NCBI RefSeq assembly: GCF_003584645.1
Contig: NZ_AP017928.1
Span: 4,912,833 to 4,976,832, forward strand
DNA: 64,000 nucleotides
Source of the DNA: Methylocaldum marinum
Lineage (GTDB): Bacteria > Pseudomonadota > Gammaproteobacteria > Methylococcales > Methylococcaceae
Reading direction: 5' to 3'
Both the position numbers and the translations under genes were made by a program. The notes beneath the pieces are model-generated. The model had not been told where the DNA came from. It worked only from the letters and a program-made list of their open reading frames with translations, and did not search any database. Positions 7,246 to 24,543 of this stretch are shown here, one piece after another (position 1 is the stretch's first letter; each line of letters starts with the position of its first letter).

Positions 7246-7613
7246 CGGCTTTCGCCGTGCACGTGGGGGTGAGCGGCGGGCTTAGGAGCCGCGAACGCCC
7301 GCCCCGGACGGGCGGGCTGGCTGAGGCCACAGGGAAGTGTCCTTGAGGTGGGGTGGAATAGACCACCCGGTTCATCCCCACGCACGTGGGGGTGAGCGGC
7401 GGGCTTAGGAGCCGCGAACGCCCGCCCCGGACGGGCGGGCTGGCTGAGGCCACAGGGAGGTGTCCTTGGGGTGCCGTGGAACAGACCACCCGGTTCATCC
7501 CCACGCACGTGGGGGTGAGCGGCGGGCTTAGGAGCCGCGAACGCCCGCCCCGGACGGGCGGGCTGGCTGAGGCCACAGGGAGGTGTCCTTGGGGTGCCGT
7601 GGAACAGACCACC
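7246..7613. repeat. Three 123-bp tandem units carrying broken CRISPR repeats (leader-distal array end)
   Basis: Units start near 7246, 7368 and 7491, about 123 bp apart, just before the first intact CRISPR repeat at 7614. Copies 2 and 3 open with the first 24 bases of the CRISPR repeat (CGGTTCATCCCC then ACGCACGTGGGG). The last bases, AACAC, are replaced by GTGAGCGG, and about 99 bp of unrelated sequence follows, including the hairpin GCCCGCCC/GGGCGGGC. Copies 2 and 3 are almost identical. Copy 1 differs at several positions near its right end and its repeat part is largely lost (GGCTTTCGCCGTGCACGTGGGG). This is a tandemly duplicated, decayed end of the array and not a set of normal spacers. 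Confidence 0.85.
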
Positions 7614-10600
7614 CGGTTCATCCCCACGCACGTGGGGAACACTTCAGCCGGAGATTGCCGGAACTTAGGCGGTCCGGTTCATCCCCACGCACGTGGGGAA
7701 CACATGTACTCCACGTGCGGGCCCTTGGCATAGGCCGGTTCATCCCCACGCACGTGGGGAACACCGTCGGTTCCGTTTGAGGCGGGTCATTCGGATCGGT
7801 TCATCCCCACGCACGTGGGGAACACGCGAGTCCGAGCGCACGGAGTCCCAAGCGCCCGCGGTTCATCCCCACGCACGTGGGGAACACGCGAGTCCGAGCG
7901 CACGGAGTCCCAAGCGCCCGCGGTTCATCCCCACGCACGTGGGGAACACTTAACGCAATCCCCGTCTTTCGAAACCGAGTCCGGTTCATCCCCACGCACG
8001 TGGGGAACACGTCGATTCGGAGTACCGCGAGACGGCCTACCGCGGTTCATCCCCACGCACGTGGGGAACACATCCGGCAGGGGGAGCTTCCTGCTGTGCA
8101 TGGCGGTTCATCCCCACGCACGTGGGGAACACAGCCGGTTGATGACGGCGACAACGTTCTCGGCCGGTTCATCCCCACGCACGTGGGGAACACCGCCCCA
8201 TGATGACATCCAGCGCCTCGGCCAGCGGTTCATCCCCACGCACGTGGGGAACACCTAAGCGCGCCCCACTGCGTCGCTTGGAGGTACGGTTCATCCCCAC
8301 GCACGTGGGGAACACAGTGGAATACCACCCGGTATATATCGGAGTGCCGGTTCATCCCCACGCACGTGGGGAACACGCGTCAGGGAAAAAACGTAACGGT
8401 TTCGAGCGTGGTTCATCCCCACGCACGTGGGGAACACCGTCCAGGTTAATTTGCTCGACGGTGGCCCCACGGTTCATCCCCACGCACGTGGGGAACACTA
8501 CAGCATCCGGATTTCGGACGCATCCCACTGCGGTTCATCCCCACGCACGTGGGGAACACGTTGACTGTCGATTTCCCGACCGTTGGGATTGCGGTTCATC
8601 CCCACGCACGTGGGGAACACGGCGCGTTCGCGGCTGGGTTTTCCGGGGTGTCCGGTTCATCCCCACGCACGTGGGGAACACGCTTACCATCCGCGTCGTA
8701 ACACCAGGACGACAGGTTCATCCCCACGCACGTGGGGAACACTGCCGCTTTGAAGACGAGCACATGCCACGGTTCGGTTCATCCCCACGCACGTGGGGAA
8801 CACTCCGGTGGTTGCCCGGATCTGCTCCGGGCAGGCGGTTCATCCCCACGCACGTGGGGAACACCCCTGGACCACGATGGAGGTACCTGACCATGGCGGT
8901 TCATCCCCACGCACGTGGGGAACACATGGCGATGGCTGCGCTGGTGGAGTCGATGGACGGTTCATCCCCACGCATGTGGGGAACACGAAGTCGAACATGC
9001 GCGCCTTCGCCCCGTTTCCGGTTCATCCCCACGCATGTGGGGAACACAGCATCGGGGATAGGCGGTCTAGCACGCTGAGCGGTTCATCCCCACGCATGTG
9101 GGGAACACTCCCGAGCCCAGATTATCTAGCGATCATCTGTCGGTTCATCCCCACGCATGTGGGGAACACTCGAATTCAATGAATACCTCCCCGTCGAATG
9201 TCGGTTCATCCCCACGCATGTGGGGAACACTAAGTTGATGTGAGGGATCACGGTTGTGTTTAACGGTTCATCCCCACGCATGTGGGGAACACTGAAAGAG
9301 CATAAACCTGAAAACGTGCTGGCTCGGTTCATCCCCACGCATGTGGGGAACACGCAGCCCGCAACGCTTTGTAACCGCGATGACCCGGTTCATCCCCACG
9401 CATGTGGGGAACACGTTTGGTGAAATCTATCATCCCGTTACGGGTGCGGTTCATCCCCACGCATGTGGGGAACACGGCGGCTTGGACGTCTTCGCCGTGA
9501 TGCCCGTCGGTTCATCCCCACGCATGTGGGGAACACTGCGCCATTGACCGACGCATACATGTCGATTTCGGTTCATCCCCACGCATGTGGGGAACACTTT
9601 CGACCGCCGTTTTGAGAGACGAAAAAGTTCGGTTCATCCCCACGCATGTGGGGAACACCTGTAACGGCCGCCGATCTGGTACTTGCCTGGCGGTTCATCC
9701 CCACGCATGTGGGGAACACAACCGGCCGTCCTCCAGGGCGGCCAGGAGCGCCGGTTCATCCCCACGCATGTGGGGAACACTCGGCCTCCGGTTACGATCG
9801 CTAACCCCTCCGCGGTTCATCCCCACGCATGTGGGGAACACGTCCGATTCCGATCAAGCGGCGCGACTTCTCTCGGTTCATCCCCACGCATGTGGGGAAC
9901 ACGGCCCGGAACTGCTCCCGGTACTGCTCCCGAACGGTTCATCCCCACGCATGTGGGGAACACACGATTGGATGGACGGCGCGGCATACATGGCCCGGTT
10001 CATCCCCACGCATGTGGGGAACACTCGAATTCAATGAATACCTCCCCGTCGAATGTCGGTTCATCCCCACGCATGTGGGGAACACGGATCGCGGGCCGTG
10101 CTTTGACTCATGATGCGCGGTTCATCCCCACGCATGTGGGGAACACGTCGGCGACGAGGTGTATCTGGTCGAGGGCATCGGTTCATCCCCACGCATGTGG
10201 GGAACACCGGTCTGTTGCGTCGCGGACTGCCCGATCGTTGCGGTTCATCCCCACGCATGTGGGGAACACCGGTTGCCAGGACGTCAGGGCGCCGCGTGCC
10301 GCGGTTCATCCCCACGCATGTGGGGAACACGCACCGGAGGATGAAACAACATTGCTGGCAATCGGTTCATCCCCACGCATGTGGGGAACACGGAGGATGA
10401 TTGATGAGTTCGAACGTCAAGGGCGGTTCATCCCCACGCATGTGGGGAACACGCTCTCTTTCACGCTCATGAATTTCCGACTCCCGGTTCATCCCCACGC
10501 ATGTGGGGAACACGTGGGCGACCGTGATCATCATTTCTTGCCGCCCGGTTCATCCCCACGCATGTGGGGAACACCTAAGATTACGTGTGTTTTCGTTTTG

Positions 10601-11367
10601 CATTTGCGGTTCATCCCCACGCATGTGGGGAACACATCTAACTGGTGCGGAAAATAAAGCTTAGGCTCGGTTCATCCCCACGCATGTGGGGAACACCTCC
10701 TGTAAGTAGGGAATGGCTTCCATAATGGCGGTTCATCCCCACGCATGTGGGGAACACGGCTTAAGGGACACTTGTCGTCTAACGCTTTTCGGTTCATCCC
10801 CACGCATGTGGGGAACACTCTTTAACCCACTCCCCGAACAGGTTGTTGGACGGTTCATCCCCACGCATGTGGGGAACACGATTTTAGAACAGTCGTACTC
10901 TCCGTATCCTGCGGTTCATCCCCACGCATGTGGGGAACACGTGTGCGCCAACGGAACTATCACCAACACTAACGGTTCATCCCCACGCATGTGGGGAACA
11001 CATACCAGGTGGATTTAGAAAACGCCAAACGCGCGGTTCATCCCCACGCATGTGGGGAACACGGCCGTTTAATCATGTATTCAATGTGCGGCCCCGGTTC
11101 ATCCCCACGCATGTGGGGAACACGAATATCATCCGACTACGCATTAGCTCAATGGCGGTTCATCCCCACGCATGTGGGGAACACCCGATTCGCCAGCCGA
11201 TTCTTGGTCCTCAATGCGGTTCATCCCCACGCATGTGGGGAACACTTTCTATACATGCCGCAGATTCGTCGTTATGACGGTTCATCCCCACGCATGTGGG
11301 GAACACTCGTACAACCGCAGTTGTCTACATGTCAACATCGGTTCATCCCCACGCATGTGGGGAACAC
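7614..11367 (-). CRISPR. Type I-E CRISPR array, 62 intact repeats and 61 spacers
   Basis: The 29-bp repeat recurs every 61 bp (occasionally 62). On the plus strand it begins CGGTTCATCCCC and ends GTGGGGAACAC. Read on the minus strand it begins GTGTTCCCC and ends GATGAACCG, the classic I-E form with a stem flanked by CCCCAC and GTGGGG. Repeats 1-22 (7614-8925) carry ACGCACGTGG; repeats 23-62 (8958-11367) carry ACGCATGTGG, a one-base change in the loop. Spacers are 32 or 33 bp. One spacer is present twice in a row (7826-7858 and 7888-7920), and another occurs twice 14 units apart (9170 and 10025). The cas genes and leader at the right end show transcription toward low coordinates. Confidence 0.98.
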
Positions 11368-11470: not shown

Positions 11471-12667
<1,197 letters not shown>

Positions 12668-12671
<4 letters not shown>

Positions 12672-13111
12672 CTCCAGTCCTTCAAGTGCACGGCGTGCTT
12701 ATCGTCGCCCACGGTCTTGAGGTATTTCTCGTCGGCAGTGACAAAGATGCCTTCATTGACGATGGCAAGAGCATGATGGGCCGCATCGTAGAAGGTGACG
12801 CGGTGGCGGGTCGTCAATGCCGGGATTTGGCGTTGCCATTCGGGTGCTGACAGCGGTTCTCCCGGGCCCATGGTCATCAACACATTCGCGTGATTGTCCC
12901 GGTCCCGCCTGCTCCATTCCTCCGCGCTCATTTCTAAAGGCTCCAGGCTTTTGCTTCTCTCGCGAATTCGGGCAAACGCTTCCATCCGTCCCCGTCTGGC
13001 GAGAGTTTCGGCCAAAGATTCATTGATTATCTTGCTGCGCTCGCCTTGGGGAATCTCCTGCAGCTGTGCCCGAACAGAGTCATCGAGAACGATATTGATC
13101 CGATGCGGCAT
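12668..13111 (-). CDS. VapB-like antitoxin fused to a truncated PIN (VapC) domain, inside the cas operon
   Basis: A 147-residue chimera. Residues 1 to about 75 (starting MPHRINIVLDDSVRAQLQEI) look like a ribbon-helix-helix antitoxin with a charged toxin-binding tail. Residues about 95-147 look like the C-terminal half of a PIN ribonuclease (TTRHRVTFYDAAHHALAI, then FVTADEKYL, then LKDWR). The N-terminal PIN strand with the first catalytic Asp and the Glu helix are absent, so nuclease activity is unlikely. An internal deletion in a vapBC pair would give exactly this. GGAGG sits 6 bases before the ATG, and the palindrome TGTATACA (13152-13159) upstream may be an old VapB operator. The stop overlaps cas1. 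Confidence 0.75.
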
Positions 13112-13161: not shown

Positions 13162-13221
13162 TTAAGTTCGCTTCACCAGCAGCAAACCGCAACCGAAGGC
13201 TTTGGCGGGGCCGATGCATTC
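13162..13221 (-). pseudogene. Relic of a second cas6e (C-terminal 19 codons) after cas5
   Basis: Just after cas5, in another frame, the minus strand reads ECIGPAKAFGCGLLLVKRT followed by TAA. GIGxAKxxGxGLL is the glycine-rich C-terminal signature of Cas6e; the intact Cas6e in this operon ends GIGSAKGFGFGMLLLQPVRI. In the E. coli-type order cas7-cas5-cas6e-cas1, cas6e follows cas5, which is exactly this position. The fragment differs from the intact gene, so it is not a recent partial copy. It overlaps the cas5 stop, as expected after a deletion that removed most of the old cas6e. This is a reading from a short match. Confidence 0.7.
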
Positions 13222-13909
13222 ACTTCACCGCTTCTTTAAGGGCAACCCGGCGCGGGACGAACTTCCGGATTCCATCCGGTGCTGCAAAGCACAGCGGTTG
13301 ATCCGGCAACGAGTCGGTACCTTCATCGAAGTACTCTACTTCGCGTTGGTGGGTAAACGCTTCCAGCGGTTGATCCCCCAACAGAGAAAGTAAGGCATCC
13401 GGTTCGTTGGCGAAAATGCCGCCGTATATCGGTGCCGTGGGAATGCAGGCTTTCCGGCCTAGCCAAACGCCCCATACAGGATTTTCCAATGCTTGCCCAA
13501 AAGAATTAATGAGCGAGATATTGCCTGACAGTACACAGGCAAAAGAGGCATCACATAAATATTGTCTGTAAGTAAGATGAGTATCCTTGATTTTCCCGTC
13601 AGCCGTCTTCGTATTCTGCACCGTGTGGTAATCGGTAATGCGCCGAACTATCAATTCTGCGGGCTTGTCCCCGTATTTTATCCAGCGTGGAACGGCTACC
13701 GTCAGCAGTCGCAGTCCTGTGCATTGTTCAAGCAACGTTTTCTCCTCTACGGAACCACGCGGGATTCCCAAAGCGGCAAGACACATGCCTAGAATGGCGC
13801 TTTTTGTGGGAAGCAGGCCGGAGTTACGTCGGTTGTATTGGCTATTGAAACCCCAGGCTTGAAGTGGTCCTTCTAGCCGTAAGGCGAGATGAGCAATTTC
13901 AATCGACAT
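13220..13909 (-). CDS. cas5e: Cascade subunit Cas5e (CasD)
   Basis: Cas5e caps the 5' handle of the crRNA in the type I-E Cascade complex. The 229-residue product starts MSIEIAHLALRLEGPLQAWG, the signature opening of Cas5e (LRLxGPLQAWG), followed by RRNSGLLPTKSAILGM. The ATG at 13909 lies within the end of cas7 (about 11 bases overlap). Family length is normal. Its 3' end abuts the relic of a second cas6e, so the downstream border of the gene is a deletion scar. Confidence 0.93.
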   Translation of the reverse strand: MSIEIAHLALRLEGPLQAWGFNSQYNRRNSGLLPTKSAILGMCLAALGIPRGSVEEKTLLEQCTGLRLLTVAVPRWIKYGDKPAELIVRRITDYHTVQNTKTADGKIKDTHLTYRQYLCDASFACVLSGNISLINSFGQALENPVWGVWLGRKACIPTAPIYGGIFANEPDALLSLLGDQPLEAFTHQREVEYFDEGTDSLPDQPLCFAAPDGIRKFVPRRVALKEAVK

Positions 13910-14957
13910 GAGCGCACGCCTTATACAGGAATTCAGCAAGGCTCAAGTCGGGAATTGCTCCATTGAAGAGTTCGCTCTTATCCAAACCCCAAGTGCTGTT
14001 AAGGTTTTCGCGTTCGTTTTTCATCGCATCCAGCGAAGCTTCGAACAAGCCCTTTCCGCCATAAGCGCGTATAGGTTTCTCGAAGGCATTAACCAGTTGC
14101 ACGGGGTGGCCGCTACTACGCACTACGCCAAGTACATAGCCCGGCAGGGTGGCAGCATTCATCGAATTTTTGCGAGCACCTGGAATTGCCTTGAGTGTGG
14201 CTTCGATGAAGCTACGCACGACTTCCTGCCTCTCCTCGCGGGACAACGCTTGCAGGTGATCCTTATCCGCAAGCATATCTATATTTAACGCGGCAAAACG
14301 ATAATAGGTGGCGGAATTGAATTCCAAAGTGCCAGTCATACCCGCGCCGGATTCCTCGTTGGGCTGCCAATCGTCCACGGCAGAGAAGAAGTCGATTTCA
14401 TTATCGACTTTGTGGGTAGACAAGGCATGGCTGAATAAAGCCGCGCCTTCTAACGTGAGCGAATGGTCGTTGGCGACCATTCGCCCGAAAAGTGCAATAT
14501 CGGCAGCATCTTTGAGAATTTCGGATGAAGCGGCTTTCTTGATAGCTTTCTTTGCATCGCCGGTTTCGTGAAAAGCCCGCGCTAATGCTTCGAGTTCGGC
14601 CTGTGAGGTGAAGAAAAGGGTTTTTACCTTGAGTTTCCCCGTTTTTTTCTCCGTATCAACATCAAATTTTGAAAGTGCATCAGCCAGCGCTTTTGCTTTA
14701 TCGAGTGCGTCTACCTCGGCAATGCCTTCAGCAATTAATGCATCGCGCAAAGGTTCTACGATAAGCCGCGTGCGCTGGCCTTGAAAGCGAGGGTTGATTT
14801 CCGTTGCTAACTCCCGAATTGCTCGCTTCCAGGATTGACTGGATACGCGCGCCCGCTGTACTCCACCGAAAATGGCAGTCTTGGGAGAATTGAGATCGTC
14901 ACGATTAAGGCAGGCGACGGGAAAGGATTGCAGGATATGCAGTTCGAGATGCTTCAT
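13899..14957 (-). CDS. cas7e: Cascade backbone subunit Cas7e (CasC/Cse4)
   Basis: Cas7e forms the six-copy helical backbone of Cascade along the crRNA spacer. The 352-residue product starts MKHLELHILQSFPVACLNRD and contains the family block KTAIFGGVQRARVSSQSWKR, an RRM-type core carrying RNA-contacting basic residues, plus the later ALPGYVLGVVRSSGHPVQLV region. Length is typical. It is preceded by cas6e with 27 bases between and overlaps cas5 downstream. Confidence 0.95.
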   Translation of the reverse strand: MKHLELHILQSFPVACLNRDDLNSPKTAIFGGVQRARVSSQSWKRAIRELATEINPRFQGQRTRLIVEPLRDALIAEGIAEVDALDKAKALADALSKFDVDTEKKTGKLKVKTLFFTSQAELEALARAFHETGDAKKAIKKAASSEILKDAADIALFGRMVANDHSLTLEGAALFSHALSTHKVDNEIDFFSAVDDWQPNEESGAGMTGTLEFNSATYYRFAALNIDMLADKDHLQALSREERQEVVRSFIEATLKAIPGARKNSMNAATLPGYVLGVVRSSGHPVQLVNAFEKPIRAYGGKGLFEASLDAMKNERENLNSTWGLDKSELFNGAIPDLSLAEFLYKACAHVD

Positions 14958-14984: not shown

Positions 14985-15617
14985 TTAAATTCGAACGGGT
15001 TGCAGCAGCAACATGCCGAAGCCGAAGCCTTTGGCGCTACCTATGCCCTTATAAAATGCTTCTTCAAATTGTTGTTGATCGGTGACTTCGAGCACTCCGC
15101 GAAAACGCACGCCGGTATGGACGCCATGTCCGTTTCTCTTGCGGAAGACCTGATCTTGGCAGAACCCTACTTCTGGAGCTTCGAGTACATTGAAGCCGGA
15201 TTCCATTGCTTTCCGTCGTAGCCACTCGGATTGCTCATCGATACGAGTGAGTGGTTTGCGACGGCCGTTCTTGGTGCGTTCGCCATTCGTATCGAACTTC
15301 AACACCTTGCGAGTGGGATTGGCTCGCAAATCGAAGCGGTATTGACGATGGCCCAGAAATTCCGGGGTAATGGATTTCACTGCCCAGCATTCTTCCGGAC
15401 ACCAGTCCGGTCGTTCGGGACGGTGCTCTTTAGAAAGCAGCAGTAAAGTGAAACCATCCGGCCCTGAGTCGAGCCGGGAAAGGAACGGGCGCGGTTGGCC
15501 GTCCAGTTTTGGAAATGCCTGCCAAGCCGCCCGATGCCAAGCATAGCTATCGGTAAGTTCAAGGCGTCGATAAGCAGCCAAATCGGGTTCAATCAGAGCC
15601 CTTGCCAGCCAACTCAT
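14985..15617 (-). CDS. cas6e: crRNA-processing endoribonuclease Cas6e (CasE), between cse2 and cas7
   Basis: Cas6e cuts the pre-crRNA at the base of each repeat hairpin and stays bound to the 3' handle. The 210-residue product starts MSWLARALIEPDLAAYRRLE. The likely catalytic histidine is H28 (SYAWHRAAWQAF), where E. coli and Thermus enzymes have their active His, and the C-terminal glycine-rich loop GIGSAKGFGFGML is present. Its ATG overlaps the cse2 stop as ATGA. Its place between cse2 and cas7 differs from the E. coli order; a relic at the canonical place suggests this copy replaced an older one. Confidence 0.93.
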   Translation of the reverse strand: MSWLARALIEPDLAAYRRLELTDSYAWHRAAWQAFPKLDGQPRPFLSRLDSGPDGFTLLLLSKEHRPERPDWCPEECWAVKSITPEFLGHRQYRFDLRANPTRKVLKFDTNGERTKNGRRKPLTRIDEQSEWLRRKAMESGFNVLEAPEVGFCQDQVFRKRNGHGVHTGVRFRGVLEVTDQQQFEEAFYKGIGSAKGFGFGMLLLQPVRI

Positions 15618-16156
15618 GAGGCTTCCTCCGGTTCCGTCATCGGTGCCCAGAAACTGCGCGCCCATTCCGTCCGTACTCGCTCGGTACGATACTGCCAGTT
15701 GAGCAGGTCTTCGAACAGTCGTTGATAGTTAACCGGAATGTCTTCCGCCTTGGCCCGAAGCACGAGACGAATGATCCGATCAAAAATTTCCTCGTCTTCC
15801 GCCGCTAGCAAATGCTGAAAACGGCGGGAGATAGGGCCAACGCCTTCCGCCGTGGCAAGCTGCTTGCGCTCCTCCTCTCTCAGCAATGCCCGACACAGCG
15901 CGCCGAAATCGCCTTCGGACGTTTCTTCCGGATGGGTGGCGTACAGACCGGCGACGGTCTGCACGGTCCGGGCAAGATGCGTGTCGCCAATACCCCCGAA
16001 ACGTCCGAGATATGGCCAAGCGCGATGACGTTTGCCGTCTACCAGGACGCAACGCATGTCAGCCATGAGACCCCTATCGTCCCGCCGGCTGCGTAAAAAT
16101 TCGAACAACTTTTCCTGTAGCTTTTGTATCGCGGTTTTTTCGGTTGGTTTTTCCAT
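15614..16156 (-). CDS. cse2: Cascade small subunit Cse2 (CasB)
   Basis: Cse2 dimerises in the belly of Cascade and stabilises the displaced DNA strand of the R-loop. The 180-residue, mostly helical product starts MEKPTEKTAIQKLQEKLFEF and has family features such as RAWPYLGRFGGIG and the C-terminal NYQRLFEDLLNWQY. Length is typical. It lies 6 bases after cse1 and overlaps cas6e by the ATGA arrangement. Confidence 0.92.
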   Translation of the reverse strand: MEKPTEKTAIQKLQEKLFEFLRSRRDDRGLMADMRCVLVDGKRHRAWPYLGRFGGIGDTHLARTVQTVAGLYATHPEETSEGDFGALCRALLREEERKQLATAEGVGPISRRFQHLLAAEDEEIFDRIIRLVLRAKAEDIPVNYQRLFEDLLNWQYRTERVRTEWARSFWAPMTEPEEAS

Positions 16157-16162
16157 TATTGT

Positions 16163-17752
16163 TTATTCCTCCATCTCCTCGGCTTCGGGTTCTTCCGGTT
16201 CGGTTTCGCGCTTGGACTGGGCGAACAGCTTGTCCCAACCTAGCGCGAAAGCTCGCATCTGACGGGGCGTTTCCTGGCCGCAGGCGAGTTTGTAGGCTTC
16301 GCGCGCTGCACCATGCACCGCTTTACGCCACACACGGCGGGTTTGTTCGACGGCTTCGGCGGTTGTGCCTATCGCTGCAACATGGTCCATCAAGCTGGGG
16401 CGCAGTTTTTCCACAGCGGTCCAATAATGGCGGGTAGCAGTGGCGTGCAGCTGACCGCGCAACTGGTTTTTATTGGGGCCAGCCATCTTGATTCTAGCCT
16501 CCCAACCGCCATCAATCTGTTCTCGATAAGTTTCCACCGCCCAGGAAAGCTTGCTTGCAACACTCTCAGCCCAACGTATTTCCGCGTCATAGGCGGTGCG
16601 GACGTTATCAGTACGCATGTTGGCGGGAACATGAAAAACAGATTCGACCGTATCAAGAATACTGGCCTTGTTGGTAAGGAGGGCCCCTACCCAGAGGTCA
16701 AATGGGACGTTATCGGGGATATTGCTCAGAGTCAGCGCACCGCCTGTTTGACCTTGTTTGCGGGAAGCAATAAGTGCGGATAACTCGCGCCAGATAGCCT
16801 TGGCACCAGCACCAAGCAACTGCCTTTCCTCGTTGTTCCGGCTGATAACTATCGTTGCAGCAGCTTCTGCCGGAAATTCAGGAAAAGCGGGATAAACGAG
16901 GCCATTTCCTAACAGTATTCCATCGCTATTGGCTTGCAATCGGAGCAGCCGAGAAAGAGGAACCAAACGGCCAAGATAGGTTCGTGTGGCATTCTCCACC
17001 GCTGGTTTATCGTCGAGATTGGCAGGAACGTATTCCCAGATCGGTTTACCCCAACTCCCGTGGCTTACATGATTGAAATGTTGGGCCACAGTCTCCTTGG
17101 TCAGCAGGTTGACACAGATAGTGTCGTACAACGTTTTGCGGCGAAGATAGGCGTGGAGCATCGAAGAGGGAGTACATGGCGCATGGGCGCTAGATTTGCT
17201 GGTTTCTTTACCATCCCATCGCACTTTGGCTATCAAACCACCAGGAGAGAATTGTTGTGAGGTCAGTAACATCAACGCCAAAACTGCCGGGGGAAAAGTT
17301 CGAGCAGCCGTAGGAAAACCTCCGTGATCAAACAAAGTAGTGTTATTTCCCGTGGCTAGAGCGAAATCCAATTTACTTGCCGAAGTAAGAGCTCCCAAAT
17401 CGCTGTCTTGATCAGCTTTTGCGTTTTTTGCTGGCTTCTCGATACAGGCGATCTGCAAAAATGGTTTTTGTGAGTGAAACAAATCGAACGAATCCCGCCA
17501 TTTTTCCAAATAGTGTTCCGCGGCTCCGGGTAGATCTTTCGGCGCTTCGTCCCAACTATCGATGTCCTCCGGTCCATCCAATGCCGCTTGAGCAACGCAG
17601 ATCAATAGCCGCATCAGGGCAATGCGTTCGTGCGAACGCACTGACAAATCGGAAAATTGCTGACCTTCCGTGAAAACTTCCAAAAGGCTGGCGAGTCGGC
17701 GCTCGCCGCCGGGTGTTACCACCGGAATCCAAGGTTCAGTCACAAGATTCAT
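16163..17752 (-). CDS. cse1: Cascade large subunit Cse1 (CasA/Cas8e)
   Basis: Cse1 recognises the PAM and recruits Cas3. The 529-residue product starts MNLVTEPWIPVVTPGGERRL (the LVxEPWIPV opening is diagnostic) and contains the N-terminal block FDLFHSQKPFLQI, the C-terminal four-helix region, and an acidic tail EPEEPEAEEMEE. The start at 17752 gives 17 bases of overlap with the end of cas3. Full length for the family. Confidence 0.95.
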   Translation of the reverse strand: MNLVTEPWIPVVTPGGERRLASLLEVFTEGQQFSDLSVRSHERIALMRLLICVAQAALDGPEDIDSWDEAPKDLPGAAEHYLEKWRDSFDLFHSQKPFLQIACIEKPAKNAKADQDSDLGALTSASKLDFALATGNNTTLFDHGGFPTAARTFPPAVLALMLLTSQQFSPGGLIAKVRWDGKETSKSSAHAPCTPSSMLHAYLRRKTLYDTICVNLLTKETVAQHFNHVSHGSWGKPIWEYVPANLDDKPAVENATRTYLGRLVPLSRLLRLQANSDGILLGNGLVYPAFPEFPAEAAATIVISRNNEERQLLGAGAKAIWRELSALIASRKQGQTGGALTLSNIPDNVPFDLWVGALLTNKASILDTVESVFHVPANMRTDNVRTAYDAEIRWAESVASKLSWAVETYREQIDGGWEARIKMAGPNKNQLRGQLHATATRHYWTAVEKLRPSLMDHVAAIGTTAEAVEQTRRVWRKAVHGAAREAYKLACGQETPRQMRAFALGWDKLFAQSKRETEPEEPEAEEMEE

Positions 17753-20348
17753 GATCGATTTTCCCCTCCTTTCCGCGCCGAATTTCCACGCCGCGGTCAA
17801 TATGCCAATAAAGTGAGATGTCTTCTTTCAAGCCCCGAATCTTTATCGTGCCGTTAGGTTGCACCCAGGCGATGGCCTGTTCGCCCTTGACGTAACGGCG
17901 CGTGGCTTCTTCACGCAGAAAAACAGTGAATGCGGACTTGGGGACTTTCACCAGATTTCGGTGAAGAGCGCGTGCGGTATCGAGGCGGAAAATATCGTCC
18001 GCCAGATTAGCGACTTCGCCATTGAGCAGGGTAAGCTGTTGACCTTGAAGTGAAACCGCCAGGATCAACAGGAAGGTTTTTACCTCGCTCACACGTGTTT
18101 GTACGCCTTCCTGATCGTCCAGCATAGGATTCCAAATGTTGGCCGCCATCTGGGCGACTTGTTTTTTGGCGAATTCATCGCCCTGGATTTCTTCCTTCCA
18201 GGCTTGCCAACCTTCCGGTTCATTCTCGCGTTCGACATAGGTTGCCTTTAACAAAGCACGGATATCCATTGGAATCCGGATAATCGACCGCGATGGCGAT
18301 GACCATTCCTCCAACGAGCGTAGCAGCACATAAGGGGAATACACCCAAGCTTTTGCGCCGAATGTTTTTCGAATTTCTTTCTTGCCCAAGACACGCAGTT
18401 CGGCCAGAGGTTTAGCCTCCCGCAAAATCCAGCACTCCGGGCGTTCGGTCGGACGTGGGCCACGTGGATGCCGCCATAAGCGGCCGATACGTTGAAGCAG
18501 CATGTCGGTAGGGGCGAGTTCCGTAACCAACAAGTCCGCATCTAAATCGACGCTTTGCTCTACTACCTGGGTCGATACGAGAATGCATCCCGATGGCCGC
18601 AGCCCCTTGGCTTCGCCATCCTTACCCAAGGCATCCATCCAGTACTCTTCCAGCTCTTCCCGTCGGAAATGCGGAAAGCGGGAATGCAGCAATCCCAAAG
18701 CCGGGGCATCGGCATCTTGTTGAGCCAAAATCTCGAACTCGGCATAGATCATTTGAGCGCTGGCAACCGTGTCGCAAATCCACAGCACGCACGCGCCCTG
18801 GCTCGCCTTATCCCACACAGCGCGCCGGGCATCTTTGGATTCCATGAAGTCGATATGGACGGAACTGTCTTTCGGCGGCTCTACCGGGCGTGGCTTAATG
18901 AATGCTCCGCCGGACTGTCGTCCGGAAATTAATGGGTAAGCCGTAGCTTCTTCGGATGACTCGGACCCGTCCAACAGTGCCGCACGGCGTTCCGGAGTTA
19001 GCGTGGCGGATAAGAGAATAACGGTGCAGCCCAAATCTTCCAAGGTCTTGCATAGCACTCGGATCAATGTGCCGGTATAGAAATCATAGGAATGAATCTC
19101 GTCCAAAATGACGACTTTGCCCGCCAAACCGAAGCGCCGAACAAAGAAATGTTTGGCAGCAACTACCGAGAGTAAGGCTTGATCCACTGTGCCCACGCCA
19201 AATGGTGCGAGGATCGCACGCTTGGCGGAGGCGAACCAATCACGGGCGGCTCGGGCGTCTTCTGTTGGCTTTCCGGATGCGGTCGCCGAAGGTTCTGGTT
19301 GGTTGACTCCATCCATCAACCAGGAATTGGCATGAATCAGGCGAGTCGTTGGGTTTTTTTGGCAAATGACACCGATGAATTCGTTGACCCGAAGATGAAT
19401 GCGGTTGCTGGTGGCTTGGGTCGGGAGCGCGAAGTAAATTCCGTTTGCCTTGCCTTCGGTCAGCAAACGATAGGCGCAGGCTAAGGCAGCCTCAGTCTTG
19501 CCCATGCCCATAGGGGCTTCGATGACATAGACGCCGGGTTCGGTGATGGCTTCCAGAGCCTTGCTTTGCAAGTCATTCGGCGGAAAACAGAATAGTTGGT
19601 CGAAGCTGAAGCCAGCCTTCGTTGTGGGACGGGCAAAGCCGATTCTTTCCACGGCCTTCCGTGCCCGTTCCCGGCTTTCTGCGGGTGAGAAGTTCTGGTC
19701 CGCCTCCGGCGGGAAATTGGTTTCATCCGAACCGATCCAGTCGGCGACCGAGATTAAGCCGGCCAGCCACCAGAGATGCGGAGAATCCGGGCCGATTTCG
19801 GTATCCGGCAATTCTCCAAGCGCTTCTATTAGCTGATGCGCTACTTGCCTACGCTTCTTTTCCCACTCAGCATCGGTTGAAGCATTATTGTCGTTCGACA
19901 TACCGGCTGTCGCCTGCAAACCACGATCAGTGGGACGATGTAAGCGGCCATGATGAGCGCCCACGGATACCGCCCAATAAATTGCGCTTTTTCGTTTTAT
20001 GCCGGTTTCGAACAGCAGGTTTTGCACGGTGAACTGGCTTACCTTCGAGTGGTCCTTTTCCAGGTTTTGCCAACCCTGAGCGGTGCTGATTTGGGTCAAG
20101 CCATTCCGTTCAAGCCAAGCTGGACACTTGCACTGAAAGCCTTGGGAAATCTTGCCGATGTCATGCAGCGCGGCCATGATGGCGGCCACTTGGCGATTGA
20201 GCTTGAAATCTGCGAGAAAAGATGGCCTATGAGAAGCAATGAAGTGGGCTACATGGCCAACATTGAGTGCGTGGTGAAACACGCCGATGCCTGGGCCCTT
20301 ATCTTCCGTGGTTTTTGCCCAAAACTCGATTTGGTCAAGATTAAGCAT
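17736..20348 (-). CDS. cas3: CRISPR effector nuclease-helicase Cas3
   Basis: Cas3 is recruited to Cascade-bound targets and degrades the DNA processively. The 870-residue product has an N-terminal HD nuclease (VFHHALNVGHVAHF at about 23-36 and LHDIGK with H62 D63), a superfamily 2 helicase with Walker A APMGMGKTEAAL, the DExH motif LDEIHSYD, and the QRIGRLWRH-type motif VI. No fusion or truncation is seen, so interference looks intact. It heads the cas operon on the minus strand; the promoter should be just above 20348. Confidence 0.95.
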   Translation of the reverse strand: MLNLDQIEFWAKTTEDKGPGIGVFHHALNVGHVAHFIASHRPSFLADFKLNRQVAAIMAALHDIGKISQGFQCKCPAWLERNGLTQISTAQGWQNLEKDHSKVSQFTVQNLLFETGIKRKSAIYWAVSVGAHHGRLHRPTDRGLQATAGMSNDNNASTDAEWEKKRRQVAHQLIEALGELPDTEIGPDSPHLWWLAGLISVADWIGSDETNFPPEADQNFSPAESRERARKAVERIGFARPTTKAGFSFDQLFCFPPNDLQSKALEAITEPGVYVIEAPMGMGKTEAALACAYRLLTEGKANGIYFALPTQATSNRIHLRVNEFIGVICQKNPTTRLIHANSWLMDGVNQPEPSATASGKPTEDARAARDWFASAKRAILAPFGVGTVDQALLSVVAAKHFFVRRFGLAGKVVILDEIHSYDFYTGTLIRVLCKTLEDLGCTVILLSATLTPERRAALLDGSESSEEATAYPLISGRQSGGAFIKPRPVEPPKDSSVHIDFMESKDARRAVWDKASQGACVLWICDTVASAQMIYAEFEILAQQDADAPALGLLHSRFPHFRREELEEYWMDALGKDGEAKGLRPSGCILVSTQVVEQSVDLDADLLVTELAPTDMLLQRIGRLWRHPRGPRPTERPECWILREAKPLAELRVLGKKEIRKTFGAKAWVYSPYVLLRSLEEWSSPSRSIIRIPMDIRALLKATYVERENEPEGWQAWKEEIQGDEFAKKQVAQMAANIWNPMLDDQEGVQTRVSEVKTFLLILAVSLQGQQLTLLNGEVANLADDIFRLDTARALHRNLVKVPKSAFTVFLREEATRRYVKGEQAIAWVQPNGTIKIRGLKEDISLYWHIDRGVEIRRGKEGKIDHESCD

Positions 20349-20503
20349 GGATTTCCCCCGGCAAATTCACACAATGCCAACCTGGGCAATGCTCCTGTTT
20401 CGGCGGCAGAGCCGGGCGCTCTTCCCCCAATATTTCCAATACCCTTTTTCCATGTCTTATCCCCCACTAACCGAAAACAGCGAAATCGCTTCTTATGGTT
20501 CTC

Positions 20504-20593
20504 TTAGATCGGTGAATCCTGTGTGCTGATGTAGTCGAATCGATCCTCGAGGTCGTCGGCGGCATCAGCGGTCAAAAGAACGCGGTAAGCCAT
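20504..20593 (-). pseudogene. Truncated RelE/ParE-type toxin gene (29 codons)
   Basis: A short frame reads MAYRVLLTADAADDLEDRFD then YISTQDSPI and stops. This is the typical N-terminus of ParE/RelE-superfamily toxins (MxYRVxLTxxAxxDLExIxxYI), but only about a third of the family length is present, lacking the catalytic or gyrase-binding C-terminal part. The ATG overlaps the stop of the upstream 62-codon frame by one base (TGATG), the usual antitoxin-toxin arrangement. It lies about 155 bases upstream of cas3 on the same strand. Read as a decayed toxin. Confidence 0.6.
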
Positions 20594-20781
20594 CACCCCC
20601 GTTCCTTGTTACGCAGCTGGTCTTGATTTAGTTCCTTATCAATCCGAGGCGGATTGGCGTATGAGGCTTGCACTGCCGCCACATCGATGCAGTGATAGGA
20701 CAGACGGCAACAATTCACCCGATCGGCGGAGTCGGATCGAACTCTTGCCCAATACTTCCAAGAAACATGATCAGCGGCCAT
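20593..20781 (-). CDS. Small unrecognised protein, possible antitoxin partner of the ParE relic
   Basis: A 62-residue frame starting MAADHVSWKYWARVRSDSAD and ending PRIDKELNQDQLRNKERG. The family was not recognised. It ends one base into the start of a truncated ParE-like toxin, which is the position and coupling of an antitoxin gene, and its C-terminal tail is charged like a toxin-binding segment. The N-terminal part does not look like a standard DNA-binding fold, so it may itself be rearranged or non-coding. Confidence 0.35.
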   Translation of the reverse strand: MAADHVSWKYWARVRSDSADRVNCCRLSYHCIDVAAVQASYANPPRIDKELNQDQLRNKERG

Positions 20782-21250
20782 CTCTTATCTCCCATGCGAT
20801 GTAAACCTTATAGCATAGGCAGTAGCTCACCAGGTGAGCCTGTAAGGATGACTATATGCCGGAAAGGGCCGAAATTCTTGTAACTGAATCTTTACATCAT
20901 GTATCGGACGAGATTCCGGGAGGGGGGATTGGGAGGCGAGTGTCTGATGTTGTTTGTCAAGGATATTGATTTTATTGATATTTTCTGATTTATGAGTAAC
21001 GGTAAGCCCAGAGGGAAGAGGGTGTCTACACAAATCGTCATCTCGGCATCGCGAACGATGCGGCTCGTGCCGGACAATCCCTGCCCGGCACCCTTCGGGC
21101 GGACTACTGTGCACCAGTTCGCCGGGAGCGAACCGGAACGTGCGAAGCACGGCCCGAAGGGCGAGTCTCAGGGATGAGACGAGTAAATCGGCTATCCTGT
21201 CGATTTGTCACTGCGTTCAGCACATCCTACGAGCTGGGATAGGCGCTAAG
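20782..21250. other. Intergenic stretch with dispersed repeat sequence
   Basis: No credible gene. The part around 21050-21190 (CGGCACCCTTCGGGCGG, then CGAAGGGCGAGTCTCAGG) looks like a dispersed intergenic repeat; the first phrase also occurs at about 7230 beside the CRISPR array. An AT-rich patch at about 20940-21000 separates it from the ParE relic and could hold its promoter. Confidence 0.45.
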
Positions 21251-21775
21251 CTATCTGCCGCGCCTTCCGATGGCCATCGATGGAAACCGCTCGGGGCGGA
21301 TGCTCGTCCTCGTTGCACGGGCTAAGGTAGCCAAATCGTTGGGCGTGACGACCGGCCTCCTATCGGGGGTCGAGCCGTAGTAGCGCCGACTCCCGGGCAG
21401 TATTCGCGAAAGTCCTCCGGCGATCAGCAAGGTGACAACGCACGCACAGCAGCTTCTGTAAGTCAGGTTGTAGGTTCCAATCCTCTGCCATGCCGCCCAC
21501 GCGTCGAGTATCGCATCCTCGTCGAACGCGCCGGCAAACGTGTAATCCTGCGGCAGCCGGTTGCCTTCGCTGGCGCAGTCGACGCGAAACACTTCCGCGC
21601 CGCCGGGAACGGTGGATTCCCCGATGAGTATCTGATACGCGGCCTCCGAGGTAGCGACCGACCCGCTTCTGGGCCACCAGCTGATGTAAGTCGAGCCGCA
21701 CGTCATCGCGCCGTGACCGACGTTCCCGCCGCTGCCGATGACGCCCGTGCCGGGCCAGACATGGACTGTAACCAA
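21251..21775 (-). CDS. Unrecognised protein, possible permuted papain/NlpC-P60-fold enzyme
   Basis: A 174-residue protein. The TTG start at 21775 is supported by AAGGAG about 8 bases upstream. Visible features are an early VGHGAM followed by STYISWWP, then a late SCCACVVTLLIAGG. A His in a GH(A/G)-type strand early and a Cys at the head of a helix late is the order of permuted papain-like (LRAT/YaeF/NlpC-P60-type) hydrolases, and GHxxxxxxxxYISWWP-type motifs are seen in some secreted effector-like proteins. No signal peptide and no obvious immunity partner are adjacent. Function is inferred from two motifs only; it could equally be an orphan accessory protein. Confidence 0.5.
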   Translation of the reverse strand: MVTVHVWPGTGVIGSGGNVGHGAMTCGSTYISWWPRSGSVATSEAAYQILIGESTVPGGAEVFRVDCASEGNRLPQDYTFAGAFDEDAILDAWAAWQRIGTYNLTYRSCCACVVTLLIAGGLSRILPGSRRYYGSTPDRRPVVTPNDLATLARATRTSIRPERFPSMAIGRRGR

Positions 21776-21810
21776 GGTTTTTCTCCTTTCGAGTAGAGGG
21801 ACGTTGAACC

Positions 21811-21917
21811 GTTACCATGCGTCAAGAAAGTAAAGCCCTATTCGAGTCGCCCTCCCCCCAACCCTCTCCCAGAGGGAGAGGGAGCCGTTGCCGCTCTACT
21901 TTCTTGGCTATTGGTAA
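21811..21917. mobile_element. Short inverted-repeat element, family 1, copy A (107 bp)
   Basis: The left end GTCAAGAAAGTAAAG and right end CTACTTTCTTGGC are inverted repeats. The centre carries CCCTCTCCCAGAGGGAGAGGG as a hairpin (shown in parts: CCCTCTCCC with GGGAGAGGG). A second copy of identical length, alignable base for base with scattered differences, lies at 50200-50306. Constant length, ends and centre at two unrelated intergenic sites suggest a non-autonomous element (MITE- or REP-like). Confidence 0.65.
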
Positions 21918-22079
21918 TTGTAAGCAAGGAGCCCGGATTCTGCTTCGAGGCCGTGAAAGAATTCCCCCTCTTGATAGCATGGCGGCCCGCCCGGACGACT
22001 GCGTGGGGCCGGACAATCCGGTGCGTGCGGTCGACGCTTAGTGGACAGGTGGGTTCCAAAGCCCATCGACAGATGGATA

Positions 22080-22108
22080 GGGGGCTCTTGTGGCTTTACT
22101 TTCTTGAC
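22080..22108. mobile_element. Right-end fragment of inverted-repeat element family 1
   Basis: GGGGGCTCTTGTGGCTTTAC followed by TTTCTTGAC matches the right third of the copy at 50200-50306 almost perfectly. It stops at TTGAC, exactly where the IS605-type element begins, so the insertion probably used this TTGAC. Confidence 0.6.
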
Positions 22109-22184
22109 CCGGTGCGTGACAAGCGCCGCCGTTCAGGGCGGGGAAGGATAGCGCGGACGGCGCAGCCGTCCTTGTCTTTGGGTT

Positions 22185-22598
22185 TCAGTGTGGGGTTTGC
22201 TGCTGCTCGATGTACTGGCGCACGATGGAAATCGGCGCGCCGCCGCAGCTTGAAGCGAAATAGGACGGCGACCACAGCACGCCTTTCCAGTAGCGCTTCT
22301 GGATGTCGGGCCGTTCCTTCCGCAGCAGGCGACTGGAGACGCCTTTGAGGCTGTTCACGAGATTGGAGACAGCCACCTTGGGCGGGTATTCCACAAGCAG
22401 GTGAACGTGATCGTCCTCGCCGTCCATCTCGATCAGTTGCGCCTCGAAGTCGGCGCAGACCTTGGCGAAGATCGTGCGCAGCCGGTTGATGGCGTCGCCA
22501 TCGAATACCCTGCGGCGATATTTCGCCACAAAGACCAAGTGGACGTGCATTTTGAAAACGCAGTGCCGTCCATGCCTTATATCGTTGTCATTGTTCAT
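22185..22598 (-). CDS. tnpA: IS200/IS605-family Y1 transposase TnpA
   Basis: A single-strand DNA transposase that cuts and joins IS ends through a tyrosine. The 137-residue product starts MNNDNDIRHGRHCVFKMHVH and contains the HUH motif in DDHVHLLVEY and the catalytic Tyr (about Y129) in IVRQYIEQQ near the C-terminus. Length is normal, with no frameshift. It starts 15 bases from the divergent tnpB. The upstream in-frame extension to 22625 would overlap tnpB and is unlikely. Confidence 0.93.
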   Translation of the reverse strand: MNNDNDIRHGRHCVFKMHVHLVFVAKYRRRVFDGDAINRLRTIFAKVCADFEAQLIEMDGEDDHVHLLVEYPPKVAVSNLVNSLKGVSSRLLRKERPDIQKRYWKGVLWSPSYFASSCGGAPISIVRQYIEQQQTPH

Positions 22599-22613
22599 AG
22601 ACCAAACTATACT

Positions 22614-23840
22614 ATGCGCATGCAACGCCTCAAAGCCTTCACATTCGAACTACGCCCGACCGGCGAGCAGCAGCGCCAGATGCGCCGCTTCGCTGGCTCG
22701 TGCCGGTTCGTCTACAACAAGGCGCTGGCGTTGCAGAAAGAGCGCTACGAGCGCGGAGAGAAGAAGCTGGGCTACGCCGGGCTATGCAAGCTGCTCACCG
22801 AGTGGCGCAACAGCGATGAAACGGCGTGGTTGGCGGATGCGCCAGTGCATCCGCTGCAACAGACTCTCAAGGATTTGGAGCGGGCCTACAGCAACTTCTT
22901 CGCCAAGCGGGCCGACTTTCCACGTTTCAAGAAGAAAGGCCAGCGCGACAGCTTCCGCTACCCCGACCCGAAACAGATCAAGCTCGATCAGGGCAACAGT
23001 CGCATCTTCCTGCCCAAGCTCGGCCGGCTGCGCTATCGCAATAGCCGGGATGTGCTGGGTACGGTGAAGAACGTCACCGTCAGCCTGTCGGGCGGTAAGT
23101 GGTTCGTGTCGATCCAGACCGAGCGCGAGGTCGAGCAGCCCATCCCGCAGGGTGGCGCGGTCGGCATCGACATGGGGCTGGCCCGGTTCGCTACGCTCTC
23201 GGATGGCACGTTCTACGCGCCGCCCAACAGCTTCAAGCGGCATGAGACACGCTTGCGCAAGGCACAGCAAGCACTATCCCGCAAAGTGAAGTTCAGCAAC
23301 AACTGGAAGAAGGCGAAAGCCCGCGTCCAGCGCATTCATTCCCGCATCGGCAACGCCCGCCGCGACTTCCTGCACAAGACCTCGACCGCGATCAGCCAAA
23401 ACCACGCGATGGTGTGTATCGAGGATTTGCAGGTACGGAACATGTCCAGGTCAGCGGCAGGTACTACCGAACAACCGGGACGAAACGTTCGGGCCAAGTC
23501 TGGCCTGAACAAGTCCATCCTCGATCAAGGCTGGTTCGAGTTCCGCCGCCAACTGGATTACAAGCTGGCGTGGCAAGGCGGCTGGCTGGTTGCAGTGCCG
23601 CCACAGAACACGAGCCGTACCTGTCCGTGCTGCGGCCATGTGTCTGCCGACAACCGGCAGACGCAAGCCCGATTTGCGTGTGTGGAATGTGGCTTCGAGG
23701 AAAACGCCGATGTGGTCGGCGCGATCAATGTGCTAAGGGCGGGACACGCCCGGTTCGCCTGTGAAGTGAGCGATGCAGTAGGGTCGCCAGCAGCAGGAAC
23801 CCACCGAAGCGACTCAGGGGCGGCTCAATGCCGCCCCTGA
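22614..23840 (+). CDS. tnpB: TnpB RNA-guided nuclease of the IS605-type element
   Basis: TnpB is the RNA-guided DNA nuclease ancestral to Cas12 that helps keep the IS at its donor site. The 408-residue product starts MRMQRLKAFTFELRPTGEQQ. The RuvC residues appear intact: D186 (GIDMGLARF), E270 (CIEDLQVRN) and D366 (ENADVVGA). The zinc finger is CPCCG (from about 337) with CVECG. After the last catalytic Asp the tail is rich in Ala, Gly and Ser, as expected where the coding region overlaps the omega RNA. A second ATG at 22620 is an alternative start. Probably active. Confidence 0.92.
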   Translation: MRMQRLKAFTFELRPTGEQQRQMRRFAGSCRFVYNKALALQKERYERGEKKLGYAGLCKLLTEWRNSDETAWLADAPVHPLQQTLKDLERAYSNFFAKRADFPRFKKKGQRDSFRYPDPKQIKLDQGNSRIFLPKLGRLRYRNSRDVLGTVKNVTVSLSGGKWFVSIQTEREVEQPIPQGGAVGIDMGLARFATLSDGTFYAPPNSFKRHETRLRKAQQALSRKVKFSNNWKKAKARVQRIHSRIGNARRDFLHKTSTAISQNHAMVCIEDLQVRNMSRSAAGTTEQPGRNVRAKSGLNKSILDQGWFEFRRQLDYKLAWQGGWLVAVPPQNTSRTCPCCGHVSADNRQTQARFACVECGFEENADVVGAINVLRAGHARFACEVSDAVGSPAAGTHRSDSGAAQCRP

Positions 23841-23884
23841 GCGCCGTAGGAATCTCCGGCCTTCAGGCCGGGGAGGATGTCAAC
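23700..23884 (+). ncRNA. Probable omega RNA (reRNA) region at the tnpB 3' end
   Basis: In IS605-type elements the guide RNA of TnpB comes from the tnpB 3' end plus the right end of the element, with the guide read from the flanking DNA. Here the right end ends with the hairpin CCGGCC-TTCA-GGCCGG (23856-23871) and GGGAGGATGTCAAC. The guide would then start near 23885, inside the end of the neighbouring IS200-type element. The 5' limit given is a guess. Confidence 0.35.
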
Positions 23885-24510
23885 TTAATCAGCTACCACC
23901 CGCAGAGCGGGTGGTTTGATGAAGGCCCCCTGAGGGGGCCGAAAAACGGATGAAAGGGCCTAAAGACCCTGGATGTACAGTTGCTCGATGCGCCTCTCCT
24001 CAGCTTCCTGATGACGGATATAGGCTCGAATCACTTGCTCATCCAATCCCACAGTGCTGACGCAATACCCCTTGGCCCAGAAATGTAGCCCCGTGAAGTT
24101 TCGCTTCTGTCCCAAGAATTCCCGATGGATACGGACCGCGGATTTCCCTTTCAGAAAGCCCACCGTATAGGCCACGCTGAACTTCGGCGGAATACTCAAG
24201 CACGGATGAATGTGATCCGGCATCGCGTGCCCTTCCACCAACTCGATGCCCACTTGGCGGCACAACTCGCGGAAAATCCCCCCGACCCGTCGCCGCAACG
24301 TTCCATAGATTGCCCGGCGCCGGTATTTGGGCACAAACACAACATGGTACTTGCAGTACCATTTGACGTGAGATTGGCTCTGCCATTCTCGGATGATGAC
24401 CTCCTTCCAATTGCAGTTGTAGGAGGGAGGTCATCGACCATCCAAGGGCGCTCGCCGGAACGGAAGAGCCTTGCGGAGTCCACCGCCAGAGGCGGTGGCT
24501 TACCTAATCG
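23885..24510 (-). mobile_element. IS200-type element (tnpA only)
   Basis: A compact element with a Y1 transposase gene and a perfect subterminal hairpin with an AGA loop near each end: ACCACCCGC/GCGGGTGGT (23895-23915) and CCACCGCC/GGCGGTGG (24480-24498). A further hairpin GGCCCCC/GGGGGCC lies at about 23924-23940. It sits directly against the right end of the IS605-type element. Exact ends are approximate. Confidence 0.75.
23960..24394 (-). CDS. tnpA: IS200-type Y1 transposase TnpA with an ATC codon in the start position
   Basis: The frame reads REWQSQSHVKWYCKYHVVFV then PKYRRR and on to a normal C-terminus, with the HUH motif in DHIHPCLSIPPK and the Tyr in IRAYIRHQE. The part before HVVFVPKYR is typical of intact IS200 transposases, so the natural start is upstream of the GTG at 24340. 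A strong AAGGAGGT precedes the codon ATC at 24394-24392, which stands where family members would have ATG; no ATG, GTG or TTG lies between there and the upstream stop. Either a rare ATC start is used or the start was lost by one base change. The GTG at 24340 would give a shortened 126-residue protein. Confidence 0.75.
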   Translation of the reverse strand: MREWQSQSHVKWYCKYHVVFVPKYRRRAIYGTLRRRVGGIFRELCRQVGIELVEGHAMPDHIHPCLSIPPKFSVAYTVGFLKGKSAVRIHREFLGQKRNFTGLHFWAKGYCVSTVGLDEQVIRAYIRHQEAEERRIEQLYIQGL

Positions 24511-24543
24511 AGTTACTTGGGCGATCACATAAGATCGGCATGC

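Follow-up and report, generated by a model that had tools for sequence, protein, structure and literature searches.

Why does a type I-E CRISPR-Cas operon with an intact cas6e carry the end of a second, different cas6e behind cas5? In the 64,000-nucleotide stretch of Methylocaldum marinum DNA analysed here (the window), the operon lies on the minus strand and reads cas3, cse1, cse2, cas6e, cas7, cas5, an ORF at 12668-13111, cas1, cas2 and a CRISPR array. The original prediction held that the locus once had an E. coli-like gene order, from which the canonical cas6e was deleted while another Cas6e took over. Our analysis points to a larger event, with a probability of roughly 90%: the fragment is the scar of an in situ exchange, in which a foreign I-E effector module running from cas3 to cas5 replaced the resident one.

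The fragment (13162-13217, minus strand) comprises the last codons and the stop of the resident, canonical cas6e and forms the right edge of the exchanged block. Minus-strand reading of 13227-13162, directly behind the cas5 stop, gives SECIGPAKAFGCGLLLVKRT and then a stop. When these 20 residues were compared with 24,736 Pfam models (hmmscan, E up to 10), the sole family found was PF08798 (Cas6e), matched over the last 16 of its profile positions (208-223 of 223) with 25.2 bits at a gathering cut-off of 25 (E = 2.3e-5). The first residue is Cys where the motif has Gly. The fragment is thus recognised as a Cas6e C-terminus at the curated cut-off, and the N-terminal catalytic part is absent; because only about 18 final codons remain, it is a relic and not a Cas6e. 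A matrix built from 47 canonical Cas6e tails, congeners included, gives it 50.9 bits, whereas none of 2,000 dinucleotide-shuffled versions of the sequence following cas5 in 50 loci exceeded 17.7 bits.

In three other members of the genus (G001, G002 and G003), this site has a full-length cas6e, which ends in the relic sequence. Over 13217-13162, the relic shares 54 of 56 bases with the cas6e end of G003 and 46 of 56 with that of G002, and all 38 aligned bases with G001; the agreement with G003 leaves it almost without decay. It is not an isolated fragment, since homology to G002 and G003 continues from it through the next gene and cas1. Chance similarity or an assembly artefact might come to mind for a match of only 19-20 residues, but both are refuted by the E value at the curated cut-off, the score against shuffled sequence, the near-identity with congeners and the same pattern in other assemblies, and their probability is practically negligible. 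These comparisons confirm that the 20 residues behind cas5 are the tail of a lost second cas6e at its canonical place, as originally predicted. The E. coli-like order that was proposed for the ancestral locus is still present in the three congeners, each with the canonical copy only.

The genes ahead of the relic form the incoming block, all on the minus strand: cas3 (17736-20348; TIGR01587 cas3_core 196.6 bits and TIGR01596 HD 84.4 bits, above cut-off), cse1 (16163-17800; TIGR02547, 130 bits), cse2 (15614-16156; TIGR02548, 80.8 bits), the intact cas6e (14985-15665; PF08798, 137 bits), cas7e (13899-14957; TIGR01869, 267.9 bits) and cas5e (13220-13939; TIGR01868, 110.5 bits). The stop codon of cas5e adjoins the relic; its start codon is uncertain, the family match beginning at residue 17. 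Together with cas1 and cas2, the type I-E gene set is complete, each gene scoring above its curated cut-off, and 62 I-E repeats of 29 bp lie beside the operon. A search of the single-contig genome (6.09 Mb) found no PF08798 match other than the intact Cas6e. This protein ends in GIGSAKGFGFGMLLLQPVRI and so differs in type from the relic, as had been predicted. A Tyr and a His in it align with the Y..H of Thermus thermophilus Cse3, and presumably have a catalytic role.

At this site the three congeners are canonical, with cas7, cas5, cas6e, accessory genes and cas1 in succession. The window Cas1 is 94-96% identical to theirs, whereas the proteins of cas3, cas7, cas5 and cas6e are only 26-32% identical, and that of cse1 23-24% in two of the three congeners; for cse2 no match to any of the three was found. 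DNA homology to the congeners ends at 13215-13217, inside the end of the resident cas6e, and resumes at 20742-20748, in the head of their cas3. Between these points there is a single match of 113 bp (69%), to G002 and in cas3. Given the breaks at both ends, the replaced block extends from 13218 to about 20741, with the relic as right edge of the resident DNA. A closely related cas1 therefore stands beside distant effectors (23-32%), with incongruent trees, and the flanks are collinear outside the block, on the right from 13217 to cas1-cas2 and on the left over 20742-21236 and again from 24513. Homology on the right takes in cas2 and cas1, and for G002 and G003 it also extends over the toxin-antitoxin region into the relic; G001 has different accessory genes behind cas6e, yet matches cas1 and the relic.

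These identities bear directly on the deletion that the original prediction had assumed. A vertically inherited operon that lost its canonical cas6e, with another Cas6e taking over inside it, would leave a real canonical tail at the canonical site and a present Cas6e of another type, both of which are found. It is nevertheless refuted by cas3, cse1, cas7 and cas5 standing at 23-32% against a Cas1 at 94-96%, by a matching cas3 scar at the left edge, and by the gene order of the block, which is that of a separate lineage; we regard it as very improbable. Cas6e did not take over singly in an otherwise continuing operon, for cas3 and the other effectors are foreign too and Cas6e came within a block of the usual order cse2-cas6e-cas7-cas5.

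The left edge consists of a decayed head of the resident cas3 (20671-20781, minus strand; about 37 codons), which matches the Cas3 start of G001 (tblastn E = 8.6e-9). It reaches 15.6 bits with Cas3_HD, below the cut-off of 23.1, and from about 20742 upward its DNA is homologous to G001 and G003. A second fragment of a resident-like cas3 head (20422-20453, minus strand; YWKYWGK) lies as debris between this stub and the new cas3, and 20 of 20 of its bases (20441-20422) are identical to the cas3 head of G002 (E = 2e-5). Because the head is decayed and a second fragment and other debris precede the new cas3, the history of the left edge is more complicated than that of the right, and more than one event is likely there. 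The debris region also includes, at 20507-20593, what appears by eye to be a 29-residue start of a ParE/RelE-type toxin gene, without a Pfam match. Upstream of the cas3 scar, the left homology reaches 21236 in G001 and G003. It is followed by a transposon stretch (21236-24513), with two IS200-like Y1 transposases and an IS605 OrfB/TnpB-like gene, which has no DNA homology to the congeners.

The genus contains a further discontinuity of this kind. G001 and G002 carry one canonical module and G003 another: homology between them is lost soon after cas3 begins and is regained within the final ~40-60 bases of cas6e, the sole matches in between being 43 and 79 bp long.

On the right of the relic, the resident genes were kept. 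These are cas1 (11751-12671, minus strand; TIGR03638, 382 bits), cas2 (11471-11767, minus strand; PF09707, 126.5 bits) and, between cas1 and the relic, a fusion of a vapB-like antitoxin gene with the last part of a truncated vapC (12668-13111, minus strand). The intact neighbouring pair is found in G003, where two full vapBC-like genes lie between cas6e and cas1; its toxin has a PIN domain (PF01850, 25.5 bits), and a Pfam search with the antitoxin gave no family match. The truncated vapC of the window is the PIN toxin gene minus its N-terminal part. A deletion of about 200 bp common to the window and G002 removes this part, and in the window the antitoxin and toxin remnant form one frame of 147 aa. 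The vapBC-like region itself lies at 12668-13111 in the window, 14013-14707 in L034 and 13911-14356 in L032. In G001 (L033 13959-14790), a phd-like antitoxin gene (PF02604, with UPF0175) replaces vapBC behind cas6e, and in another locus, L037, an antitoxin start similar to this phd-like gene comes after the relic. Two toxin-antitoxin-like genes likewise lie between cse3 (cas6e) and cas1 in Pelobacter carbinolicus, according to PMC2923632. The array (7368-11367) has 62 repeats of 29 bp, whose form switches after 8897: up to that point there are two degenerate repeats and 20 with CACGCACGTG, and on the cas2 side 40 with CACGCATGTG.

In the exchange that we propose, the ancestral locus would have been a canonical I-E operon like those of the congeners, with cas3, cse1, cse2, cas7, cas5, cas6e, toxin-antitoxin genes, cas1, cas2 and the array. 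Recombination with edges at both ends of the resident effector module would then have brought in the foreign block cas3-cse1-cse2-cas6e-cas7-cas5 in place of everything from the resident cas3 head to the last ~18 resident cas6e codons. The toxin-antitoxin remnant, cas1, cas2 and, by its position, the array would have been kept. The kept half of the system would write and store spacers, and the new half would read and cut. As the sole Cas6e found in the genome, the new one would have to process transcripts of the kept array, which is plausible in view of the shared I-E repeat form and the Tyr and His aligned with Cse3; the new Cascade presumably functions together with this array. The molecular route of the swap and the selective reason for it are conjectural. 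Escape from anti-CRISPRs is one reason suggested for such exchanges in PMC6452270.

A swap as in the window was found in a second genus. The block of Methylotuvimicrobium buryatense 5G (L039; L035 is the same locus in G044) was compared with the congener G101, which belongs to the same genus as G044; G044 and the window genome belong to the same order. The two are 99.2% identical over 3.8 kb up to the cas3 start and 79% over the next 92 columns of the cas3 head. On the other side, identity of 89% resumes 44 bases behind cas5, at the last seven bases of the G101 cas6e. The flanks are thus collinear outside the block here as well, and M. buryatense has the cas3 head left and no cas6e tail. A third, more distant case is L041: its DNA, starting 307 bases past cas5 and reaching into cas1, is 85% identical over 1.4 kb to the DNA that follows cas6e in the canonical locus L206.

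Searching GTDB genomes with the window Cas7 yielded 42 loci. The lineage set used below has 52, namely 41 of the 42, the window and ten further loci; L070 (Cas7 53%, no cas6e match, short contig) and the duplicates L162 (= L050) and L164 (= L064) were left out. Wherever these genes are on the contig, their order is cse2-cas6e-cas7-cas5. By record names, 22 of the 42 loci are from delta- or desulfo-type bacteria, and the others include Spirochaetes, Nitrospirae and Proteobacteria. The closest relative found is L037, an 8.9-kb contig of a betaproteobacterial metagenome bin, with effectors 62-80% identical to those of the window (Cas7 80%, Cas5 75%, Cas6e 71%, Cas3 66%) and a stretch of homologous DNA (68%) that starts at 20176, takes in the relic and ends at 13167. 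At a threshold of E 1e-60, the window's own genome was the sole match among 398 genomes of its phylum. The one match among 160 genomes of the order of L037 was L037's own genome. Plasmids were considered as carriers: 231 of 72,556 plasmid records match the window Cas7, all below 60% identity, and none was shown to be of this lineage. The same general 29-bp I-E repeat form occurs beside canonical and variant loci, and the repeat sequences did not separate the canonical from the variant lineages.

The trees of the two halves of the locus disagree. In the Cas7 tree (74 rows), all 52 lineage rows are on one side of a branch with support 100, and the window and L037 are sisters (99). The window is nested in the Cas1 tree (68 rows) among its three congeners and a further genome from its family (99/92). 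The scarred loci are scattered there among canonical and unscarred lineage rows, at least nine changes being forced by well-supported branches. Ten rows with a native Cas1 fall on one side of a branch (100/100); with these removed, 10 lineage/canonical changes are needed and at least four are forced.

Remnants of a canonical cas6e recur behind cas5 in this lineage. For 50 of the 52 loci (all but L050 and L055), the 120 bases that follow cas5 were scored with the tail matrix, and ten loci reach 27-56 bits: the window, L037, L047, L051, L060, L068, L071, L074, L161 and L163. The 120-base limit cuts or excludes remnants farther off, and clear tails were also found at +112 in L045 and +362 in L072, so that 12 of the 52 loci have clear tails. 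These are of canonical type, unlike the block's own Cas6e. PF08798 recognises the relics of L045 and L037 above cut-off alone and that of L072 with in-frame neighbours, the L045 relic spanning 32 profile positions. Two more remnants came from the gap search only, in which 28 canonical Cas6e proteins were compared with the cas5-cas1 gap of 51 loci (L050 left out): a 13-residue tail in L048 (E = 0.004; 88% over 34 bp to L020) and, in L067, a frame-broken cas6e stretch that, at about 90 codons, covers roughly one third of the gene (E = 6e-20). A canonical cas6e remnant thus lies behind cas5 in 14 of 52 loci, with L041, L043 (about eight codons left) and L077 (a decaying copy) uncounted. A relative carrying both complete copies, which the original prediction had proposed to look for, did not appear: no full-length second cas6e was found in the gap behind cas5 (0 of 51 loci), and the search of 21 genomes found one full-length Cas6e in each.

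At the left edge, 46 loci (47 stretches, the window being present twice; 306 bases only for L058) were searched with six cas3 starts (those of L204 and L205 possibly begin too late) and without a shuffled control. Where start codons had to be assigned, a simple rule was applied, and the one for L158 looks wrong. Heads of canonical cas3 were found upstream of the block cas3, mostly immediately before it, in 12 of the 46 loci (the window, L037, L039, L048, L058, L061, L063, L068, L071, L074, L075 and L077), and several of them end at the motif YHLLPYHCLDV. Both ends are scarred in seven loci: the window, L037, L048, L068, L071, L074 and L077, the last with a decayed tail.

The presence of scars follows the type of the neighbouring Cas1. 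Cas1 is on the contig in 48 loci. In 11 of these it is native (42-66% to the window) and at most 73 bases from cas5. In the other 37 it is of canonical type, 72-78% identical to that of the window (the window itself apart), and lies 58-2,230 bases from cas5; the Cas1 of canonical Geobacter-order operons is 74-78% identical to the window's. Scars at one or both ends were counted in 19 of the 37 canonical-type loci and in none of the 11 native ones (Fisher's exact test: p = 0.002, with relatedness ignored and loci without a left search taken as unscarred there). No cas6e remnant was counted in 24 of the 37, and no scar of either kind in 18. A scar is therefore not obligatory.

The recurrence of the tail behind cas5 and its well-kept codons in 12 of 52 loci might be taken to mean that it is maintained by selection as a functional element, such as a regulatory sequence, a coupling peptide or a recombination site. 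This is improbable, since the frame relative to cas5 is 0, +1 or +2, the distance from the start of the tail to the cas6e end ranges over about 8-32 codons, the copies in L077 and L067 are decaying, most loci are without a tail, and the genes downstream vary (vapBC, phd, BRO-N). Pairwise differences between the 12 relics at codon positions 1, 2 and 3 number 188, 90 and 353, and variation affects 12 of 12 third-position sites and 3 of 12 second-position sites. As the tails now lie behind the cas5 stop in varying frames, the pattern is best read as past selection inside working cas6e genes, different ones of which would have been cut.

The same excess at third positions argues against a single relic that arose with the variant gene order and has been inherited since. 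Some junctions look shared by eye (window and L037 with the same spacing, L068 and L077, and six Geobacter-order loci), as common inheritance would predict. Against it, the window relic equals that of its congener at 54 of 56 bases, relics are absent from all 11 native-Cas1 loci, and L072 has two tails, so we consider this origin quite improbable. The tails of L072 belong to two canonical types, a short LMLVRRV beside cas5 and GIGPAKAFGCGLLSLARG (GLLSLARG type) 362 bases on, and canonical operons from the same order contain both types. Having the two together in one locus suggests that two exchanges may have occurred at one place.

With exchange as the preferred reading, the last step can still be drawn in two ways: the crossover itself may have cut the resident cas6e, or the block replaced cas3-cas5 and the redundant cas6e, stranded behind cas5, was later deleted to a tail. 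The second course is possible though rather doubtful. The frame-broken remnant of L067, the longest in the lineage, lies 330-570 bases behind the cas5 stop (at 11900) and is decaying, making it a candidate intermediate between swap and bare tail; L045 also retains a longer piece. In the window (TGAATG), L037 (TAATGATG), L051 (ATGATATAC), L060 (TAATGTAC) and L163 (TGATG), the cas5 stop overlaps with, or is directly followed by, an ATG immediately ahead of the tail. Some canonical operons (L200-L203 and L207) share the TGATG overlap at the start of their cas6e. Later deletion is opposed by the lack of any full-length second cas6e in the 51 gaps, by the break at the cas6e stop in M. buryatense and by the nearly undecayed window tail. 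In addition, the cas5 stop codon appears by eye to lie inside the cas6e tail in six loci (L041, L043, L044, L045, L065 and L072), for which a direct junction is simplest. We therefore lean to the crossover itself. Deletion of a cas6e stranded by the swap would possibly rescue part of the original prediction, on the evidence of L067.

The scars may also have a use. The cas3 head and cas6e tail, which the block would carry at its two ends after a first entry into a canonical operon, could serve as short homology arms for re-entry into canonical I-E loci by homologous recombination, renewed from the recipient at each move, and so provide a general docking frame for Cascade variants. This idea is speculative and, in our estimate, unlikely. 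Renewal of the arms would account for the fresh, coding-like appearance of non-coding tails in several phyla and for the recurrence of breaks near the same two places. The shared junctions fit such docking arms, and fit equally a few illegitimate joins followed by descent.

Exchange of an effector module beside a fixed adaptation module is known. In the portions available of the sources, it is described in PMC6452270, listed as a general trend in PMC12669027, and placed in both near 'attractor' genes, such as cas6, cas1 and adaptation-gene combinations. The window resembles these cases in that adaptation genes and array were kept and effector genes replaced. It differs in that the array and/or cas6 mostly remain with the adaptation module in the published cases, whereas here cas6e was swapped with the effectors and only its last codons stayed. 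Two-sided sequence scars such as those of the window are absent from the same portions of both accounts. As far as the open-licence literature was accessible, no report of a remnant or truncated cas6e, a remnant cas3 or two-sided scars was found. CRISPR effector exchange is commonly inferred from tree conflict. Here, in two genera, the DNA itself shows where the exchanged segment begins and ends, and scars at these two boundaries are found again in loci of several phyla. The exchange route (homologous arms, microhomology or later deletion) thereby becomes testable, and the scars offer a sequence tag for past swaps. Even the nuclease for processing, which is said to remain mostly with the array, can be exchanged together with the effector.

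Two other systems were compared. According to PMC12736100, the E. coli I-E variants K-12 and B-8552 likewise show divergent cas3, cas7, cas5 and cas6 in related strains and a cas1 that is called similar; they differ from the present case in that gene order is equal in both. A DNA search with the K-12 cas1 matched 3,882 of 5,426 E. coli genomes, 2,669 of these 3,882 at only 60-80% identity. E. coli was set aside as a parallel. The 11 loci of Desulfovibrio piger (L057) and others have the same order (cas3-cse1-cse2-cas6e-cas7-cas5, cas1 directly behind) and protein lineage as the incoming block, but their cas1 is of the other, native clade, and no scar was found in them.

The region between cas5 and cas1 shows some further variation. 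In L047, L060 and L068 its DNA matches that of canonical Geobacter-order loci behind cas6e. L040 has a BRO-N domain gene there (9066-9848; by Pfam in L040 only), and look-alike ORFs are frequent in variant loci. Two more genomes of the Geobacter order contain Cas6e tails without a full gene, below the Pfam cut-off (L191, G1200:C24:102723-102869; L192, G1214:C427:2132-2209), and L191 has a Cas1 fragment in addition to its tail.
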